This document shows positions 2,102 through 9,644 of a stretch of 10,019 nt of DNA, piece after piece (within the stretch, counting starts at the first letter, position 1; every line of letters starts with the position of its first letter). The stretch covers positions 1 to 10,019 of the forward strand of contig JAFAYN010000217.1 in NCBI GenBank assembly GCA_019240375.1. Reading direction: 5' to 3'. The DNA is from Gemmatimonadota bacterium. GTDB lineage: Bacteria; Gemmatimonadota; Gemmatimonadetes; Longimicrobiales; Longimicrobiaceae. The notes beneath the pieces are model-generated. The model searched no databases, had not been told where the DNA came from, and worked only from the letters and a program-made list of their open reading frames with translations. Position numbers and translations under genes: made by a program.

Positions 2102-3220
2102 GTGCACCCCACCCGACCGGAAGAGAACGAGCCCGTCCCCGAGCTGGGCGCCCCGCGCGCCGGAGCCGACCCTACGCCGCGCAGGCCCCGGGGCCCGGTC
2201 CGCGCCTTCCTGGGCGTCCCGCTCTTCTACAAGATCCTGCTCGCCAACGCGCTGATCGTGGTGCTCGGCACGGTGGGCGGCACCTGGGTGACCACCACCT
2301 ACGTCCGCCACACGCCGTACCGCTCCATCTTCGACCTGGTGACGCTGCTGGTGGTGGGCGGGGTGCTGCTGACGGTGCTGGTGAACGCGCTGATCCTGCG
2401 CCTGGCGCTCTCCCCCCTGCAACTGCTGGAGGACACGGCGGCGAGGGTGCAGGGTGGCGACCTGGACGCCCGCACACCGCTCTCTCCCCTGGCCGACCGC
2501 GAGCTGGAAAGGCTGACCGGCACCTTCAACGGGATGCTGGACACCATGGACCTGTACCGCCAGCGCCTGCGCGACGTGGCGGTGCGCGCCCTGACCGCCG
2601 CCGAGGAGGAGCGGAAGCGGATCGCGCGGGAGCTGCACGACGAGACGGCGCAGATGCTGGCCGCGCTCCTGATCCGAGTACGGATCGTGCGCAACTCCAG
2701 CGACCCGGAGGCGCTGGACACCCTGCTGGAGGAGATGCGGCAGGAGATCGGCCGCTCGCTGGAGGGGATCCGCCGCTTCGCCCGGGGGCTGCGCCCGCCC
2801 GCGCTGGACGAGCTGGGGCTGGGCCCCGCGGTGGAGTCGCACGCGCGCAACCTGTCGGAGAGCGTGGGGATCGGCATCCGCGTGGAGGCCGACCCGCTGG
2901 AAGGGGCCCTGACGCCCGAGGCCGAGCTGGCGATCTACCGTATCGTGCAGGAGGCGCTCTCCAACGTGGTGCGCCACTCCGGCGCCACCCGCGCCACGGT
3001 GCGCCTGGCCCGAGCCTCGGGTGCCGTGGTCGCCACCGTGCAGGACGACGGCCGGGGCTTCGACGTGGCCGGGGTGATGGCCGGCGACAGGCAGGGGCTG
3101 GGCCTGTTCGGGATGCAGGAAAGGGCCGCGTACCTGGGCGGGAAGGTGGAGATCGACTCCCGTGCAGGGGTAGGGACGAGGGTCCGCGCCGAGGTTCCCG
3201 CCGCCGGCGCGGGAGCATGA
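2102..3220 (+). CDS. Membrane sensor histidine kinase, HisKA_3 (NarX/DesK) type
   Basis: The frame is open far upstream, but the upstream part is antisense to the BNR gene. The chosen start is GTG 2102, with GGAG at 2092-2095 six bases away, giving 372 residues. Two transmembrane helices (about 41-63 and 76-100) leave only a dozen residues between them, so there is no real periplasmic sensor domain. A HAMP-like linker follows (about 100-152). The dimerisation/phosphoacceptor region has the H-box RELHDE with His179, typical of NarX-type kinases. The HATPase part shows the N-box QEALSN (Asn288), QDDGRGFD (314-321) and GLGLFGM (332-338). It should autophosphorylate and pass phosphate to a NarL-type response regulator, but none is encoded in the window. 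Its TGA overlaps the ATG of the next gene (ATGA at 3217-3220), which implies translational coupling to a disulfide reductase. With so little periplasmic sequence, the signal may be sensed in the membrane or cytoplasm. Confidence 0.9.
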
Positions 3221-4632
3221 ACCACCAGCCGAACGGGGACATGGGAACGGAGCACTTCGACGCGATCGTGGTGGGATCGGGGCAGGCCGGGAACCCGCTG
3301 GCGAAGGCGCTGTCCGAAGCCGGCCGCCGCACCGCCCTGGTAGAGCGTGAGCACGTGGGCGGCACCTGCATCAACGTGGGGTGCACCCCGACGAAGACGA
3401 TGGTCGCCAGCGCCAGGGTCGCGTACCTCGCCCGCCGGGCCGGCGACTACGGCGTGAACACGGGCGAGGTGAGCGTGGACCTCGCCGCCGTCGGCAGGCG
3501 CAAGGAAGCCGTGGTGAAGAGCTTCCGAGAGGGGAGCGAGCGCCGCCTGCAAGACGCGGAGGTGACACTGGTGGAGGGCCAGGCCCGCTTCACCGCGCCG
3601 AAGACCCTGGTAGTGACGCTGAACGAAGGCGGTGAGCGGACCCTCACCGCCCCGATGATCTTTCTCAACACCGGCTCCAGGTCCGCCCGCCCCGACCTCC
3701 CCGGTCTGGACGAGGTACCCGCCCTGGACTCCACCTCCATCATGGAGCTGGAAGAGGTCCCCGGGCACCTGCTGGTGCTGGGCGGCGGCTACGTGGGGCT
3801 GGAGTTCGCGCAGATGTTCCGCCGCTTCGGAAGCGAGGTGACGGTCGTGCAGCGGGGCCCCAGGCTCCTCGACCGCGAGGATCCCGACGTCGCCGACGCC
3901 GTGGCCGAAATCCTCCGCGAGGACGGCATAGAAGTCCTCCTCGGCGCGGAAGCGAAGAGCGTACGCCGCGAAGCGGGCGAAGTGGAGCTGAAGGTGAAGG
4001 CGGAAGACGGAGACAAGGTGCTGCGAGGCACCCACCTGCTCCTGGCCGCGGGGAGGACGCCGAACACGGACGACCTGAACCTGCAGGCCGCCGGAGTGGA
4101 GACCGACGACCGAGGCTTCGTCAGCGTGAACGAGCGCCTGGAAACCGGCGCGGAAGGGATCTGGGCGATGGGAGACGTGAAGGGTGGCCCCGCCTTCACG
4201 CACATCTCCTACGACGACTACCGGATCCTCCGCGCGAACCTGCTGGACGGGGGCGACCGCAGCACCGAGGGGAGGATGGTCCCCTACGTGGTCTTCACCG
4301 ACCCGCAGCTCGGCCGCGTGGGAATGAGCGAGAAGGAAGCCACCGAAGCCGGAAAGAAGATCAAGATCGCGAAGATGCCGATGTCGTCAGTGGCGAGGGC
4401 GATCGAGACGGACGAGACGAGGGGAGTGGTGAAGGCAGTGGTGGACGCGGAGACGGAAAAGATCCTCGGAGCCGCCGTGCTGGGGCTGGAAGGAGGCGAG
4501 GTCATGTCCGCCATACAGCTGGCGATGATGGGAGGGCTCCCCTACACCACCCTCAGGGACGGCATCTTCGCCCATCCGACGCTGGCGGAGCTGCTGAACA
4601 ACCTGTTCACCGACCTCAAGGACCCGGAATAG
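3217..4632 (+). CDS. Class I FAD-dependent pyridine nucleotide-disulfide oxidoreductase (MerA/RclA/Lpd superfamily)
   Basis: A 471-residue flavoprotein of the dihydrolipoamide dehydrogenase/mercuric reductase superfamily. Visible marks are the FAD motif GSGQAG (20-25), the redox-active disulfide CINVGC (Cys51, Cys56) followed by TPTK, the NAD(P)-binding GGGYVG (189-194), the second FAD contact MGD (Asp320), and the dimerisation domain with [10 protein letters not shown] (360-369) and the HPTLAE dyad (His453, Glu458). It lacks both the MerA N-terminal metal-binding domain and the MerA C-terminal cysteine pair, so true mercuric reductase activity is unlikely. No 2-oxoacid dehydrogenase E2 gene is nearby, so a housekeeping Lpd role is not supported either. 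RclA-like or low-molecular-weight disulfide reductase activity is possible. ATG 3217 overlaps the kinase stop, but its GGGAG lies only one base upstream; ATG 3241 is an alternative that removes eight unconserved residues. Confidence 0.88.
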
Positions 4633-4647
4633 GGAGCCCGAGAAAAG

Positions 4648-4676
4648 CTGGCACCCCTGGACCACAAGGTTATAAT
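4648..4676 (+). promoter_or_regulatory. Sigma-70-type promoter for the trxB leader
   Basis: CTGGCA (4648-4653) is separated by 17 bp from a perfect TATAAT (4671-4676). It lies just 15 bp after the stop of the disulfide reductase gene. Transcription would start near 4683, about 214 nt before the trxB start. The TTATAATT stretch stands out against the GC-rich surroundings. This makes trxB independently transcribed, although read-through from upstream is not excluded because I see no terminator between the genes. Confidence 0.7.
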
Positions 4677-4719
4677 TCCACGTCGCCGTTCCCCGTAGTT
4701 CCCGAAAGATGTACGGAGG

Positions 4720-4744
4720 GAGACCACAGCCGTACCGTGGGCTC
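4720..4744 (+). repeat. Leader hairpin, copy 1
   Basis: GAG-A-CCAC, loop AGCCGTACC, GTGG-G-CTC. The stem has an A/G mismatch between its lower three and upper four base pairs. It is extended below by CGGAG (4714-4718) pairing with CTCCG (4746-4750) across a G/A mismatch, so this copy could form a stem of twelve pairs with two purine mismatches. Confidence 0.7.
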
Positions 4745-4757
4745 ACTCCGGGGCGGG

Positions 4758-4784
4758 GAGACTCACGGCTGTATCGTGAGGCTC
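4758..4784 (+). repeat. Leader hairpin, copy 2
   Basis: GAG-A-CTCAC, loop GGCTGTATC, GTGAG-G-CTC. It has the same layout as copy 1, with one extra T-A pair in the upper stem and a G-C pair closing the loop. GCGGG (4753-4757) can pair with CCCGC (4791-4795) as an outer stem, leaving six unpaired bases on the 3' side. Confidence 0.7.
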
Positions 4785-4799
4785 ACCGACCCCGCGGAA

Positions 4800-4826
4800 G
4801 AGACCGGCAGCAGTACCGCCGGGCTC
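4800..4826 (+). repeat. Leader hairpin, copy 3
   Basis: GAG-A-CCGGC, loop AGCAGTACC, GCCGG-G-CTC. The upper stem sequence differs from copies 1 and 2 at several positions, yet every pair is kept. The loop differs from copy 1 at one base only. CCGC (4792-4795) may pair with GCGG (4831-4834) below it, in competition with the outer stem of copy 2. Confidence 0.7.
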
Positions 4827-4896
4827 TGGAGCGGCCCCAGGAGCACCAAAGCCAGATCCAAGCAAAAAACCATACGATAGCCCGGAGACCCAGAAG

Positions 4897-5928
4897 ATGC
4901 CGGAACGGAACAAGGAAACGCTGGTGATCATAGGCTCCGGCCCCGCCGCCTGGACCGCCGCCGTCTACGCCGCAAGAGCCAACCTCAACCCCATCGTCTA
5001 CGAAGGCGAGCCGTCCCGCGAGATGATCCCGGGCGGCCAGCTCATGTGGACCACCGACATCGAGAACTTCCCCGGCTTCCCGCAGGGCGTCTCCGGCACC
5101 GAGCTGATGGAGCGGATGAAGGCGCAGGCCGTCCACTTCGGCACCCGCGTGGAGATGGAGAACATCGCGGAGGTGGACCTGAGCGTACACCCCTTCGTCC
5201 TCAAGCCCACCTACAGCGAAGCCTTCGAGGCGATGGCCGTGATCGTCGCCACGGGAGCCAGGGCCAACTGGATCGGGCTCCCCAACGAGATCCGCCTGGC
5301 CCAGAGCGGCGGCGGCGTCTCGGCGTGCGCGGTGTGCGACGGCGCCCTCCCGGCCTTCCGCGACAGGGTGCTCGGCGTGGTGGGCGGCGGCGACTCGGCG
5401 ATGGAGGAGGCCACCTACCTGACCAAGTTCGCCAGCGAGGTGGTGATCATCCACCGCCGTGACGAGTTCCGTGCATCCAAGGTGATGGTGGACCGGGCGC
5501 TCGCCCACCCCAAGATCCGCGTGGAGTGGAACAAGCAGGTGGTGGACGCGCTGGGCGACGACTACCTGACCGGCGTGCGCCTCCGCGACACCGTGACGGG
5601 CGAGGAGAGCGAGATGCCGCTGGGCGGGCTGTTCGTCGCCATCGGCCACACCCCCAACACCGCCTTCCTGGGCGGCCAGGTGGAATTGACCGAGCGCGGC
5701 TGGATCAAACTTTCCACCCCCTGGCGTACGGAGACCAGCGTCCCCGGCGTGTTCGCCGCCGGCGACGTGATGGACGACTACTACCGCCAGGCGATCAGCG
5801 CCGCGGGAACGGGGTGCATGGCCGCGCTGGAGGCCGAGCGCTGGCTCTCGCACCACGGCGTGGCCGAGGCCGAGCCGCCGGTGCTGGAGACCGCCGAAAG
5901 CTCCCCCGGCCGCGGCGGCGAGGCGTAG
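4897..5928 (+). CDS. trxB: Thioredoxin reductase
   Basis: A 343-residue class II pyridine nucleotide-disulfide reductase. TrxB transfers electrons from NADPH through FAD and a cysteine pair to thioredoxin in the cytoplasm. The sequence shows the FAD motif GSGPAA (13-18), the substrate-side loop with [16 protein letters not shown] (46-61), the active site CAVC (Cys144, Cys147) followed by DGA, the NADPH fold GGGDSA (163-168), HRRDEFRAS (186-194) whose Arg residues bind the NADP 2'-phosphate, and the FAD contact GD (289-290) followed by [13 protein letters not shown]. The acidic Ala/Glu/Pro tail of about 20 residues after the last helix is a small extension. The start ATG 4897 has GGAG at 4884-4887, nine bases away. 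No thioredoxin gene lies in the window. The promoter and structured leader upstream, and the hairpin downstream, make it look like a single-gene unit. Confidence 0.95.
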
Positions 5929-6770: not shown

Positions 6771-7328
6771 ATGGCAGAAATCGACAGCGACGCGGTACTC
6801 GTGGGGCGTGCCCGGCAGGGCGACGCCGGGGCGTTCGAAACGCTGGTGCGGCGGCACCTGAAATCGGCGTACGCGGTCGCGCTCGCCCAGCTGGGGGAGC
6901 GGGCCGACGCCGAGGATGTCTGCCAGGACGCGTTCATCACCGCGCTGAAGCGGATCGAGGACTGCCGCAAGCCCGACCAGTTCGGCTCCTGGCTGATGTC
7001 GATCGTACGGAACCGGGCGCACGACTACCGGCGGTACCGGACGGTGCGGGACGCGCTCCCGCTGGACGCGGCGACCGAGGCGTCGGGCCGGGAAGACCCG
7101 GAGTGGGACGCCGAGAACGCGGAGCTGCGGGAAGACCTGGAGGAAGCGCTCCAGCACCTGACGGAATTGCAGCGGGAGGTGATCCTCCTGTACGACTTCG
7201 AGGGGTGGAGCCACAGGGAGCTGGCGGCGAAGCTGGGAATCACCGAGGGATCCGCACGGGTGCACCTGTTCAACGCGCGACGCGCCCTGCGGGAGCGCCT
7301 GTCGGAAAGACACAAGGAGGAACCGTGA
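6771..7328 (+). CDS. ECF-family RNA polymerase sigma factor
   Basis: A 185-residue sigma-70 family protein with only regions 2 and 4, the ECF layout. Region 2 covers about 24-93 and includes the acidic core-binding segment ERADAEDVCQDAFITALKR (43-61) and the promoter-melting part FGSWLMSIVRNRAHDYRR (71-88). A variable acidic linker (about 95-123) follows. Region 4 covers about 124-176, with LTELQREVILLYDFEGWSH and the helix-turn-helix ELAAKLGITEGSARVHLFNAR (150-170). The start ATG 6771 has only a weak ribosome binding site (CGGA nearby). The stop overlaps the next start (GTGA at 7325-7328). That gene encodes a small membrane protein, the usual arrangement for an anti-sigma factor. The target promoters are unknown, but GGAACC upstream suggests autoregulation. 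Confidence 0.93.
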   Translation: MAEIDSDAVLVGRARQGDAGAFETLVRRHLKSAYAVALAQLGERADAEDVCQDAFITALKRIEDCRKPDQFGSWLMSIVRNRAHDYRRYRTVRDALPLDAATEASGREDPEWDAENAELREDLEEALQHLTELQREVILLYDFEGWSHRELAAKLGITEGSARVHLFNARRALRERLSERHKEEP

Positions 7329-7702
7329 ACATCGAGGACGATTTCCGCGACCTCGCCCCGCTCGACCCCGGCCGCGACGCCGTCCGGTGGGAGAGCATGG
7401 TGGGAGCCATCACCCGGGCGGCACAGCCCGAGCTGGCGCGCCGGAGCAGGATGCCGGCTCCGGGAATGCTGATGCTCCTCTCGGACTGGATGCGCCCGGC
7501 CGTGTCGACGGCGGCGCTGCTGGCGGCCGCGGCGGGTACCTTCCTGCTCACGGAGCAGCAGACCACCGCGACCGCTTCCACCGCCACCACAGCGGGGCTC
7601 GCCGACGCGCTCTACCCGGTGCCGGTAGCGACCTGGATGGACGCGGGACAGGCCCCTTCGCTGGAGGACATGGTGACCGCGCTGGAAGGAGACGGACAAT
7701 GA
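7325..7702 (+). CDS. Small single-pass membrane protein, probable anti-sigma factor
   Basis: The frame is open well upstream inside the sigma gene, but the real start is almost certainly GTG 7325, which overlaps the sigma TGA and follows a strong AAGGAGG (7314-7320). The product has 125 residues. An acidic-to-basic cytoplasmic part (1-57), one transmembrane helix (about 59-77, rich in Ala and Leu) and a Thr/Ala-rich outer part (78-125) give the topology of CnrY-type or other short anti-sigma factors. There is no HxxxCxxC zinc-binding anti-sigma motif, and I cannot recognise the family from sequence. The role is inferred from position between an ECF sigma gene and a Spy/CnrX-like sensor, with 4-base overlaps on both sides (GTGA and ATGA), which points to stoichiometric coupled translation. 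Confidence 0.7.
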   Translation: MNIEDDFRDLAPLDPGRDAVRWESMVGAITRAAQPELARRSRMPAPGMLMLLSDWMRPAVSTAALLAAAAGTFLLTEQQTTATASTATTAGLADALYPVPVATWMDAGQAPSLEDMVTALEGDGQ

Positions 7703-8184
7703 GCCCGGAAGGGGATCGGACGCGCAGGGCCCGGCTCTTCGCGCTGCTGAGCCTGGTGGTGGTCTTCATCGCCGGGACGCTGGTGGGCGCCGCCGCCGAG
7801 CACGCCCGGGGGAGGCCCGGGGGAGGCCCGGGGCGCGGGGGGCCCGGCCGCCCGGAGATCTTCGCGGCGCAGGGGGAGCTGGCGAAGAGGCTCCACCTCA
7901 CCCCGTCGCAGAGCGACTCGATCCAGAAGATCGTGACGCGCAGCCGGGCCGAGGCGGACGCCATGTTCCGGGAGATGAGGCCGCGGCTCCGTGCCCGCTT
8001 CGACTCCACCACGACCGCGATCGACGCGGTCCTGACGCCCCAGCAGCGCGCGGAGTTCAAGCGGATCCGCGACGAGCACAGGGCGGAGCGGCGGGGACGG
8101 GGCGGCGGATCCGGGTGGCCGGGAGGTCCCGGCGGCCCGGAAGGAGGACCCGGAGGTCCGCCTCCGCCGCCGGAAGGACACTAG
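7699..8184 (+). CDS. Membrane-anchored Spy/CnrX-like periplasmic sensor protein
   Basis: The start ATG 7699 overlaps the previous stop (ATGA). The product has 161 residues. A basic N-terminus precedes one hydrophobic helix (about 13-33) that may serve as an anchor or uncleaved signal. A Gly/Arg/Pro spacer (36-52) leads to a helical domain with LTPSQ (67-71) and LTPQQ (112-116), the LTxxQ signature of Spy, CpxP and heavy-metal sensor proteins. The tail (132-161) is Gly/Pro-rich with a run of five prolines. CnrX binds metal through several His, Glu and Met residues. Here the only histidines are 35, 66, 127 and 161 and there is no HxxxH pair, so metal sensing is doubtful and misfolded protein or another envelope signal is equally possible. 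With the two genes before it, it makes a sigma/anti-sigma/sensor trio. Confidence 0.75.
   Translation: MSPEGDRTRRARLFALLSLVVVFIAGTLVGAAAEHARGRPGGGPGRGGPGRPEIFAAQGELAKRLHLTPSQSDSIQKIVTRSRAEADAMFREMRPRLRARFDSTTTAIDAVLTPQQRAEFKRIRDEHRAERRGRGGGSGWPGGPGGPEGGPGGPPPPPEGH
7805..7833 (+). repeat. 11-bp tandem repeat inside the Spy/CnrX-like gene
   Basis: The unit CCCGGGGGAGG occurs at 7805-7815 and 7816-7826 and is followed by a partial copy (7827-7833). It encodes the Gly/Arg/Pro spacer after the membrane helix. Because 11 is not a multiple of three, gain or loss of one unit would shift the reading frame. Confidence 0.85.
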
Positions 8185-8196
8185 CGGAGCAGTAAA

Positions 8197-8225
8197 GGGC
8201 GAAGGCTCGCATCGCGAGCCCGCCC
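8197..8225 (+). terminator. Terminator-like hairpin after the sigma/anti-sigma/sensor cassette
   Basis: GGCTCGC (8204-8210) pairs with GCGAGCC (8214-8220) around the loop ATC. The stem is extended by GGGCG (8197-8201) with CGCCC (8221-8225) past an AA bulge, giving 12 pairs in all. It starts 13 bases after the stop codon. There is no T-tract. Confidence 0.6.
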
Positions 8226-8227
8226 GG

Positions 8228-8295
8228 CCGGACCGAGTAGAGTTCCGGATGGATCCTGGTGAATGTTTGCAGATCTGTTAAGGACATAATATATA
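8228..8295 (+). promoter_or_regulatory. Probable promoter region of the TolC-like gene
   Basis: An AT-rich patch interrupts the GC-rich sequence just before the gene. TTTGCA (8266-8271) can serve as a -35 box with TATATA (8290-8295, spacer 18) or TAATAT (8287-8292, spacer 15). An inverted repeat CCGGA-N11-TCCGG (8228-8248) lies just upstream and could be an operator. The exact -10 box is unsure. With the hairpin at 8197, this suggests the export genes are transcribed separately from the sigma cassette. Confidence 0.45.
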
Positions 8296-8312
8296 GAAGC
8301 GAGGAAGAAAAG

Positions 8313-9644
8313 ATGATCGACATACTCGTGCAACCAGGCGCGTGGCGCCGCGTGGTGCCGGTGGCGGTGGGGATCCTGGAGCTGGCGTTCGCGCCGTTCG
8401 GGGCCGCCGCGCAGCAGGCCGAGCCCCCCGCGACGGTCACACTGGAGCAGGCCACCGCGCTGGCGTTCCAGCACAACCCGCAGGTGGTCCAGGCCGCCGG
8501 GACGGTGAGCACCTCCAGGGCGGCCGAGCGGACCGCGTTCGGAGCGTACCTGCCGAGCCTGTCGGTCAACGCCGGGACCTCGCTGGCGGGGAGCAACCAG
8601 TTCGGCTCGCAGGTGGGGAGCATCTCCACGGGGACCAGCGACTCGTACAGCGCCGGCCTTTCGGCGGCGTGGGACGTGTACGACCCGGGCCGCGGCGCCG
8701 AGCGCACCCAGGCGAAGGCGCAGACCCAGGCCGCCCAGGCCGACGTGGTGGCGCAGCGCGCCGGCGTGTCGCTGAGCGTGGAGCAGTCGTTCTACGCCGT
8801 GCTCCGGGCCGAAGACCTGATCGGGGTGGCGCAGTCGCGGATCCAGCGCGCCCAGGAGGGGGTGGACGCGGCGCAGAAGCGGCTCACCGTGGGCTCCGCC
8901 ACCCGCTCCGACGTGCTGCGGGCGCAGCTGGAATTGAACACCGCGCAGAGCGCCCTTCTGGAAGCGCAGACGCAGCGCGACGCCGCCCGGCTGGCGCTGG
9001 GGCGGCTGGTGGGAGCGGACGGCCCGGTGGGCGCGCAACGCGCCGGCGACGTGTCGCCGAAGCCGCTGGCGATGACCGACGAGCAGCTGATCGCGTCGCT
9101 GGTTTCGCAGGCGCCCGCCATCCAGGCGGCGCAGGCCGCCTCCCGTGCGGCCGAGGCCGGGACCGCAGCGGCCCGCAGCCAGTACCTGCCGTCGCTGCGG
9201 CTGACGACGGGCTACAACTGGGCCAACCAGGACCCGGCGTTCTCGGACAGCCGCGGGAGCTGGTCGCTGGGGCTGGGGATCTCGTACCCGGTCTTCAACG
9301 GCTTCCAGCGCGAGGAAACCTCGGTGCGGGCGCAGGCGCAGCAGGTCACCGCCGAGGCCCAGCTTGCCGACGCGGCGCGGCAGGTCCGCTCGCAGGCGGG
9401 GAGCGCCCTGGGGCAGCTCCACCTCTCGGAAGAGAAGATCAGGCTGGCCGAGCAGGCGCTGCAGACCTCGCGGGAAGACCTGCGGGTGCAGCAGGAGCGC
9501 TACCGGCTGGGGGCGTCCACCATCCTCGACCTGCTCAGCTCGCAAGGCGCGGTGGTGGAGGCGGAGAACAACCTGGTCGCCGCACGCTACGACTACCAGC
9601 TCGCCCGCGCGCAGCTGGAGGCCCTGGCCGGGAGAGAGCTGTGA
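8313..9644 (+). CDS. TolC-family outer-membrane efflux protein
   Basis: The start ATG 8313 is preceded by GAGG (8301-8304) in a purine-rich tract; an in-frame ATG at 8259 lies inside the promoter region and is rejected. The product has 443 residues. Residues 1-33 are a signal peptide ending near GAAA/QQ. The mature protein shows the outer-membrane-factor pattern: [17 protein letters not shown] (42-58), a beta-strand segment [11 protein letters not shown], long Ala/Gln-rich coiled-coil helices, a second strand segment [15 protein letters not shown], and a closing helix with [11 protein letters not shown] and [22 protein letters not shown]. Such proteins trimerise to form the outer-membrane channel and periplasmic tunnel of tripartite exporters. 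Its TGA overlaps the GTG start of a MacB/LolD-type ATPase gene, so the partner is probably an ABC exporter of the MacAB kind. No periplasmic adaptor gene is visible; it may lie beyond the right edge. Confidence 0.92.

Follow-up and report, generated by a model that had tools for sequence, protein, structure and literature searches.

A dispersed three-hairpin repeat in one family of Gemmatimonadota, with a copy in front of trxB

The window analysed here, a contig stretch of 10,019 nucleotides from a Gemmatimonadota bacterium of the family Longimicrobiaceae, contains three hairpins of one kind in tandem in front of the thioredoxin-disulfide reductase gene trxB. We found that this unit recurs in many intergenic copies, in which three abutting hairpins retain their mismatches and loops, the stems show compensating changes, and the numbers and sites vary between species. 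On balance, we consider it probable that the three hairpins represent one of the copies of a non-coding repeat, dispersed in the genome and about 130 nt long, that is structured, resembles the repetitive extragenic palindromes (REPs) and has its single-stranded fold bound by a shared factor. No published description of this repeat was found by title or abstract start among the matches listed, and it appears to define a family of structured dispersed repeats that has not been described before, is restricted to one lineage and belongs to a phylum that has been little studied.

Anatomy of the window copy

The initial annotation of this DNA had pointed to three tandem hairpins of one family, each with an A·G mismatch and a nine-base loop of the form RGCNGTAYC, and direct reading of the letters at 4720-4744, 4758-4784 and 4800-4826 confirms all of these features in each of the three. 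These are, however, only the tips of the structure. They cap three longer hairpins with lower stems, arranged end to end in a unit spanning 4714-4834, and a loop-like motif lies just 5' of it; the lower stems, the unit and this motif had been missed. The features of the region, in window coordinates, are as follows.

4648..4676, + strand: predicted sigma-70 type promoter of trxB, CTGGCA-17-TATAAT (consensus scan, 10/12 matches; 1 against a mean of 0.0 in shuffles)
4685..4692, + strand: loop-like motif GCCGTTCC, outside the modelled hairpins (scanned as GYNKTWYC)
4695..4702, + strand: second 5' copy of the loop-like motif, GTAGTTCC (direct reading and motif scan)
4714..4750, + strand: hairpin A, with lower stem CGGAG/CTCCG, a G·A mismatch, GAG/CTC, the A·G mismatch 4723·4741, tip stem CCAC/GTGG and loop AGCCGTACC
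4720-4744, + strand: tip copy 1, GAG-A-CCAC-AGCCGTACC-GTGG-G-CTC (direct reading)
4751..4791, + strand: hairpin B, with a purine-rich lower stem containing G·A mismatches, GAG/CTC, A·G 4761·4781, tip stem CTCAC/GTGAG and loop GGCTGTATC
4758-4784, + strand: tip copy 2, GAG-A-CTCAC-GGCTGTATC-GTGAG-G-CTC (direct reading)
4792..4834, + strand: hairpin C, with CCGC/GCGG, a GGA/GGA purine internal loop, AGAG/CTCT, A·G 4803·4823, tip stem CCGGC/GCCGG and loop AGCAGTACC
4800-4826, + strand: tip copy 3, GAG-A-CCGGC-AGCAGTACC-GCCGG-G-CTC (direct reading)
4835..4837, + strand: short 3' tail CCC, beyond about which the flanks of other copies diverge by eye
4897..5928, + strand: trxB, thioredoxin-disulfide reductase (TIGR01292 above cut-off), not a conserved partner of the element

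Folding energy alone is weak evidence for the window copy. For the 215-nt leader no advantage over shuffled counterparts is seen (z -0.50), and the minimum free energy (MFE) structure of the 130-nt unit (z -2.38) contains hairpins B and C and lacks A. When the three hairpin stretches are folded singly the described tips form, with z of -0.96, -0.94 and -1.98. The opposite strand of this copy folds better (-72.0 versus -63.5 kcal/mol, z -4.74). Against the covariance model described below the copy scores 126.8 bits (E 3.9e-20), being itself among the 45 training rows of the model. By eye we recognized no consistent promoter hexamers inside the element, in the AT-rich patch before hairpin A, and a search of window positions 4600-4920 recovered no terminator-like site.

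Copies across the family and conservation of the fold

The genome of the window (G000; a 3.46 Mb assembly, 62% complete) contains 98 exact matches (51 forward, 47 reverse) to the strict hairpin pattern GAGAN{3,7}RGCNGTAYCN{3,7}GGCTC, against none for the reversed pattern used as a control, and the occurrence of the pattern in this genome is thus not a matter of chance. These matches form 62 clusters, within which hairpins A, B and C follow one another at intervals of about 40 nt. A covariance model (R2) of 45 copies from four genomes, with a hand-written structure, was run at a cut-off of E 0.001 with 144 candidates scored per genome. It recovered 89 copies in G000, 14 in a 96% complete genome of the same genus (G001), 48 and 33 in members of two other genera of the family (G006 and G007 respectively), two in G004 and one in G008, and none in the remaining 15 of the 21 family genomes. 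Outside the family none of 40 genomes of the same order was matched by the first model, run with stricter filters and 56 scored candidates per genome. Of 298 genomes sampled evenly across the phylum five were matched, all of this family; only 10 candidates were scored per genome in that sample, so weak copies could have been lost. As far as sampled, the repeat is therefore limited to one family of the Gemmatimonadota. Units with three GAGAC sites measure 124-135 nt in G000 and G001 and 155-204 nt in G006 and G007.

Several further candidates were discarded. The exact 3'-end pattern has matches in G002 (2), G005 (2) and G015 (3), for each of which R2 gives 0; both G002 matches fall inside called genes. 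Viral contigs gave two pattern matches, neither with a three-hairpin unit by eye, and the phage search returned no matches, while for plasmids there were four partial matches only, covering 17-30% of the query at E 0.03-0.4. The motif had initially been reported as not recognized and, in agreement with this, three Rfam searches gave no match to the element above any gathering score. The nearest Rfam match, to ctRNA_pGA1, lies close 5' to the hairpins in a G001 copy (L095 1652-1709) and, at 34.4 bits (E 0.0011), falls short of that family's threshold of 45; a sub-threshold match to an Rfam CRISPR direct repeat (L096 680-703, E 0.057) is seen near a G006 copy.

The anatomy of individual hairpins was compared in 120 copies parsed by their three GAGAC sites, a procedure that dropped 19 copies (from G000, G001, G006 and G007) and all five G002/G004 matches. 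The mismatched A faces G in 355 of the 360 hairpins and T in the other five, a proportion conditioned on the preselection of copies by GAGAC and on only G or T being accepted opposite. The tips carry GYNGTWY in 314 cases, GGGGTWT in 16 and neither in 30; the loop is favoured in G000, whose stretches were fetched for at least one strict-pattern hairpin. Half of the 30 tips with neither loop are A tips of G006 (copies in L142-L175), where 15 of the 30 parsed A hairpins depart from the usual loop, most of them with a larger alternative tip. In G006 and G007 hairpin B is lengthened by an additional CCCCGGACGGAGG/GGAGGAGGAG stem part. In hairpin B of L057, L078 and L127 and hairpin A of L189 the A·G mismatch has become an A-T pair, and some of these are near-perfect extended palindromes. 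In the 60 nt preceding hairpin A the loop-like motif GYNKTWYC occurs in 55/55 (G000), 9/12 (G001), 24/29 (G006) and 13/23 (G007) copies, as opposed to 2/53, 1/12, 2/28 and 2/23 control stretches further upstream in the respective genomes.

Pairing was assessed in an alignment of 45 rows (A2). Its structure was derived from these same sequences, which favours the fold, and related rows inflate the counts; read in this light, standard pairs fill 87.2% of pair cells (76.8% in shuffles), two-sided changes are present in 19 of the 39 pairs (13.1) and in 157 cells (51.4), and covariation scores 0.247 (0.084). None of 500 shuffles reaches the observed value for any of these four measures. A fifth, the number of further pair types (41 against 35.4), is reached by 5 of the 500. 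Sliding the partners by 1-3 columns reduces paired cells to 54% or less and two-sided cells to at most 39. Hairpin A has two-sided changes in 7/12 pairs with 86.1% of its cells paired, and hairpin B, where some rows are misaligned, in 7/14 pairs with 77.7% paired; in hairpin C they occur in 5/9 upper pairs and 98.3% of cells are paired. The initial annotation had argued for selection on a single-stranded fold with a conserved loop and had suggested a covariation test; this test, run here on 45 copies, gives the threefold excess of two-sided cells noted above and, with the mismatch chemistry and the loop counts, supports its argument.

The chemistry of the mismatches bears on the strand. With six misaligned hairpin-B rows of G001 set aside, and L136, apparently misaligned too, kept, the modelled pairs contain 127 purine-purine, 33 A-C and 6 pyrimidine-pyrimidine mismatches and 26 G-U pairs. 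Columns 62/107 account for 23 of the 33 A-C cells: if they are kept A-C (33) exceeds G-U (26), and if they are set aside 10 A-C cells stand against 26 G-U. Hairpins A and C alone, which are better aligned, give 74 purine-purine, 3 pyrimidine-pyrimidine, 16 G-U and 8 A-C. As the mismatches are mostly purine-purine, the forward strand, the one on which the hairpins were initially read, is indicated. By MFE, too, the forward strand is favoured in 97 of 122 copies, the window copy being an exception.

A cloverleaf closed by GCCGTTCC/GGAGCGGC was considered as an addition to this fold. Full 8-base outer pairing with the 3' tail is found in 48/55 (G000), 8/12 (G001) and 8/29 (G006) copies but in only 1/23 of G007, with controls of 1/53, 1/12, 2/28 and 1/23 respectively. 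Because the cloverleaf fails in G007, where it equals its control, and competes with the lower stem of hairpin C, it was left out of the conserved fold.

Turnover, genomic placement and competing explanations

With gaps scored as differences, copies of one genome have a median pairwise identity of 0.73-0.80; the maxima are 0.969 in G000 and 0.977 overall, in G001, and for 116 of 118 copies (118 of the 119 parsed were compared) the nearest relative is found in the same genome. Copies that differ so much in sequence yet keep the fold are more than a decaying repeat. Both flanking genes could be matched in four two-genome pairs (L075/L132, L057/L126, L082/L147 and L073/L184; proteins 42-86% identical), and one flanking gene in other copy pairs; copies at matched sites are each in the style of their own genome. 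Most compared sites have no flank match between genomes, G000 being incomplete, and of 15 G001 sites, 2 have the genes on both sides matched among the 62 G000 copies compared. Many intergenic regions of G000 (L031-L087) are occupied, for up to about 400 nt on the 5' side of the element, by a mosaic of other dispersed modules, several of which end in a T run; these include ACGCCCCCATCCG in 33/62 stretches, CCCAATTCTGGGG in 29/62 and GGGTCGGCAT...ATGCCGACCC hairpins.

Such turnover raises the possibility, which we hold to be rather unlikely, that the repeat is a miniature mobile element whose fold, as single-stranded DNA or RNA, serves only its mobilization by an enzyme encoded elsewhere, with no function for the host. 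It would account for the wide variation in copy number (89 in the 62% complete G000 against 14 in the 96% complete G001 of the same genus), the two shared sites in 15, the absence of a match at trxB in all eight relatives with an ortholog, and the frequent proximity of other dispersed modules. The repeat also resembles MITE-like sequences in being dispersed, short and non-coding with lineage-specific copy numbers; its outer complementarity, seen in G000 and G001 but not in G007, is no inverted repeat conserved in every genus, and no link to a transposase was found. A Y1 (IS200/REP-type) transposase, a reverse transcriptase or a TnpB-type domain was found in neither G000 nor G001. The RAYT family of Y1 transposases (PF01797), not detected in these two genomes (the former 62% complete), is present in G006, G007, G008, G013, G015 and G018, and in G006, G007, G008 and G015 no exact element 3' ends were detected within 50 kb of PF01797 genes. 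For TnpB or an IS605 guide RNA, PF07282 was found in 0/14 genomes (control genomes positive, 6/14). Reverse transcriptase (PF00078) occurs in 7/14 genomes, including the carriers G006, G007 and G008, and in none of the carriers G000, G001 and G004. Moreover, near-identical copies, going by the maxima given above, are absent, and copies of about 75% identity keep pairing, mismatch and loop, which speaks against a fold serving mobilization alone.

A simple custom gene caller, applied to the stretches retrieved (62 copies in the case of G000), supplied the gene contexts. Almost every copy is intergenic, with only 5 of 144 pattern matches, both G002 matches included, flagged in genes. Among the 59 G000 copies with a called 3' neighbour, 41 are turned toward the 3' end of a gene on the opposite strand (within 40 nt of its stop in 35 cases), and 18 are 5' of a same-strand gene. 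The opposite-strand share is 8/15 in G001, 25/34 in G006 and 14/25 in G007, of which 7/8, 4/25 and 2/14 respectively are within 40 nt of the stop; the looser spacing in G006 and G007 means that tight spacing is not general. Where both neighbours were called in G000 (n=51), 24 gaps are convergent, 23 tandem (12 and 11 by orientation) and 4 divergent, compared to 13, 73 and 29 respectively among 115 nearby element-free gaps (convergent enrichment p ~1e-6; the background stems from an earlier gene-caller run, whose threshold was slightly lower). The neighbour on the 3' side is the closer of the two in 49/51 (G000), 11/14 (G001), 27/28 (G006) and 24/25 (G007) copies, with the 5' distance, measured from a fixed 130-nt unit, including the 5' motif and being overestimated by some tens of bases in G006 and G007.

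This placement in G000 and G001, next to opposite-strand stops and, in G000, in convergent gaps, is what would be seen if the natural strand were the reverse complement, lying in the 3' untranslated region after the stop and terminating transcription or blocking exonucleases. We judge such a 3'-end element to be unlikely, even though the window copy is more stable on the reverse strand. The stop spacing that suggests it fails in G006 and G007, and the 18 G000 copies placed 5' of a same-strand gene include that of trxB. Reading the reverse strand would turn the predominant mismatches into pyrimidine-pyrimidine ones and G-U pairs into A-C, and runs counter to the lower forward MFE in most copies. 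The window also contains no terminator-like site around its copy.

A different objection is directed at the covariation itself. Template-switching correction of palindromes could create compensatory changes without selection, and might have produced those observed here. The five hairpins of 360 in which A·G has become A-T, some of them near-perfect extended palindromes, fit such a process, as does the independent assortment of the A, B and C tip types in G000 (p 0.92, 0.73 and 0.18 by shuffling; 57 of 62 copies parsed). In the same 57 copies the 3' lower arm of A is linked to the lower stem of B, the lower stems of B and C to each other, and the lower stem of C to its tip (p 0.002 each). Correction should erase the A·G mismatch, which instead persists in all other hairpins, although these were picked by GAGAC with only G or T accepted opposite; this weakens the explanation, and the mismatches being mostly of one chemical kind also argues against it. 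We therefore regard it as improbable.

Proposed role and relation to known elements

We return to the repeat as a bound single-stranded fold. The element may act as a single strand, most likely as forward-strand RNA, when transcription passes through it. The source of transcription would be the trxB leader in the window, and elsewhere read-through or antisense RNA at the 3' ends of genes. The repeated loop, the 5' motif copies and the purine internal loops could then together form a platform for one shared trans-acting protein or processing enzyme, which, by analogy, might work as REPs are thought to work at transcript ends. Two observations sit uneasily with a forward RNA: the window copy folds better on its opposite strand, the forward MFE being lower in most copies and not all, and the 41 G000 copies directed at 3' ends of genes on the opposite strand would there give antisense or read-through RNA. 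A bolder version, in which about 100 selected cis-acting copies serve as genome-wide RNA "punctuation" and one dedicated binding protein or nuclease reads the GYNGTWY loops and so determines where transcripts end, or how stable mRNAs are, for many genes unrelated to one another, is conceivable, and we hold it to be rather unlikely.

Among known elements the REPs come nearest. In the account of these elements and of their mosaics (BIMEs) in PMC3733652, they are high-copy extragenic palindromes, many of them between convergent or tandem genes near 3' ends, and are regarded as transcribed sequences that work as RNA; for REP stems, preserved complementarity is reported in PMC2817692. In G000 the element is likewise of high copy number, extragenic, in convergent or tandem gaps and near gene 3' ends. 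In contrast to the single palindrome of 20-40 bp that makes up a REP, it is about 130 nt or more in length with three abutting hairpins, in which the A·G mismatches and the loops, of 8-9 nt, are conserved. Unlike GTAG/CGTC-tagged REPs, it shows by eye in the alignments no conserved GTAG or CGTC tag at either end, and no Y1 transposase was found in G000 or G001. With dozens of natural variants of one fold in a single genome, and compensatory changes that favour single-strand selection, the question of selfish DNA versus working RNA in extragenic palindromes becomes directly testable.

The trxB copy also resembles riboswitches and protein-binding mRNA leaders, in that it is a structured RNA with conserved loops in a predicted 5' leader; unlike them, the element is tied neither to a gene class nor to leaders. 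A gene-specific cis-regulator of trxB, be it an aptamer or a redox or protein sensor, is hardly credible: the copy does lie between the predicted promoter and the gene, but no model match precedes trxB in any of the eight relatives with an ortholog (10 relatives searched), which contradicts it as a family-wide role, and those of the 89 G000 copies that were examined are beside unrelated genes. In one of the eight there are partial matches at chance level (E 7.7 and 8.9) upstream of the gene. The same-strand genes 3' of G000 copies include those for AlaRS, MutS, MreB, adenylosuccinate lyase, DAHP synthase, an HD hydrolase, a response regulator and CheC, among others, and trxB is the only clear thiol-redox gene among the 17 of 18 that were scanned, two having little or no annotation. 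The redox-sensing leader role initially suggested for the hairpins thus finds no counterpart in related trxB leaders. With matches scattered between unrelated genes, the outcome is the dispersed palindromic repeat that the initial annotation had itself named as speaking against that role. Such a copy should accordingly not be taken for a gene-specific riboswitch.

Upstream of trxB in G001 a similar GCTGGCA...TTATATT is discernible by eye, with a short leader from which the element is absent. G001 and three others (L258, L261, L262 and L263) have a relative of the window's histidine kinase gene upstream of trxB. In the 2102-4896 region of the window a gene for an FAD-containing disulfide oxidoreductase (3217-4632) is situated between the histidine kinase gene and trxB, and in the trxB stretches of the eight relatives no relative of it was found. 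On this comparison, the oxidoreductase gene and the element represent either additions here or losses there. Further downstream, at 6771-9644, the window has a row of genes for an ECF sigma factor, a small protein without a Pfam match, an LTXXQ/metal-resistance-like protein and an outer-membrane efflux protein.
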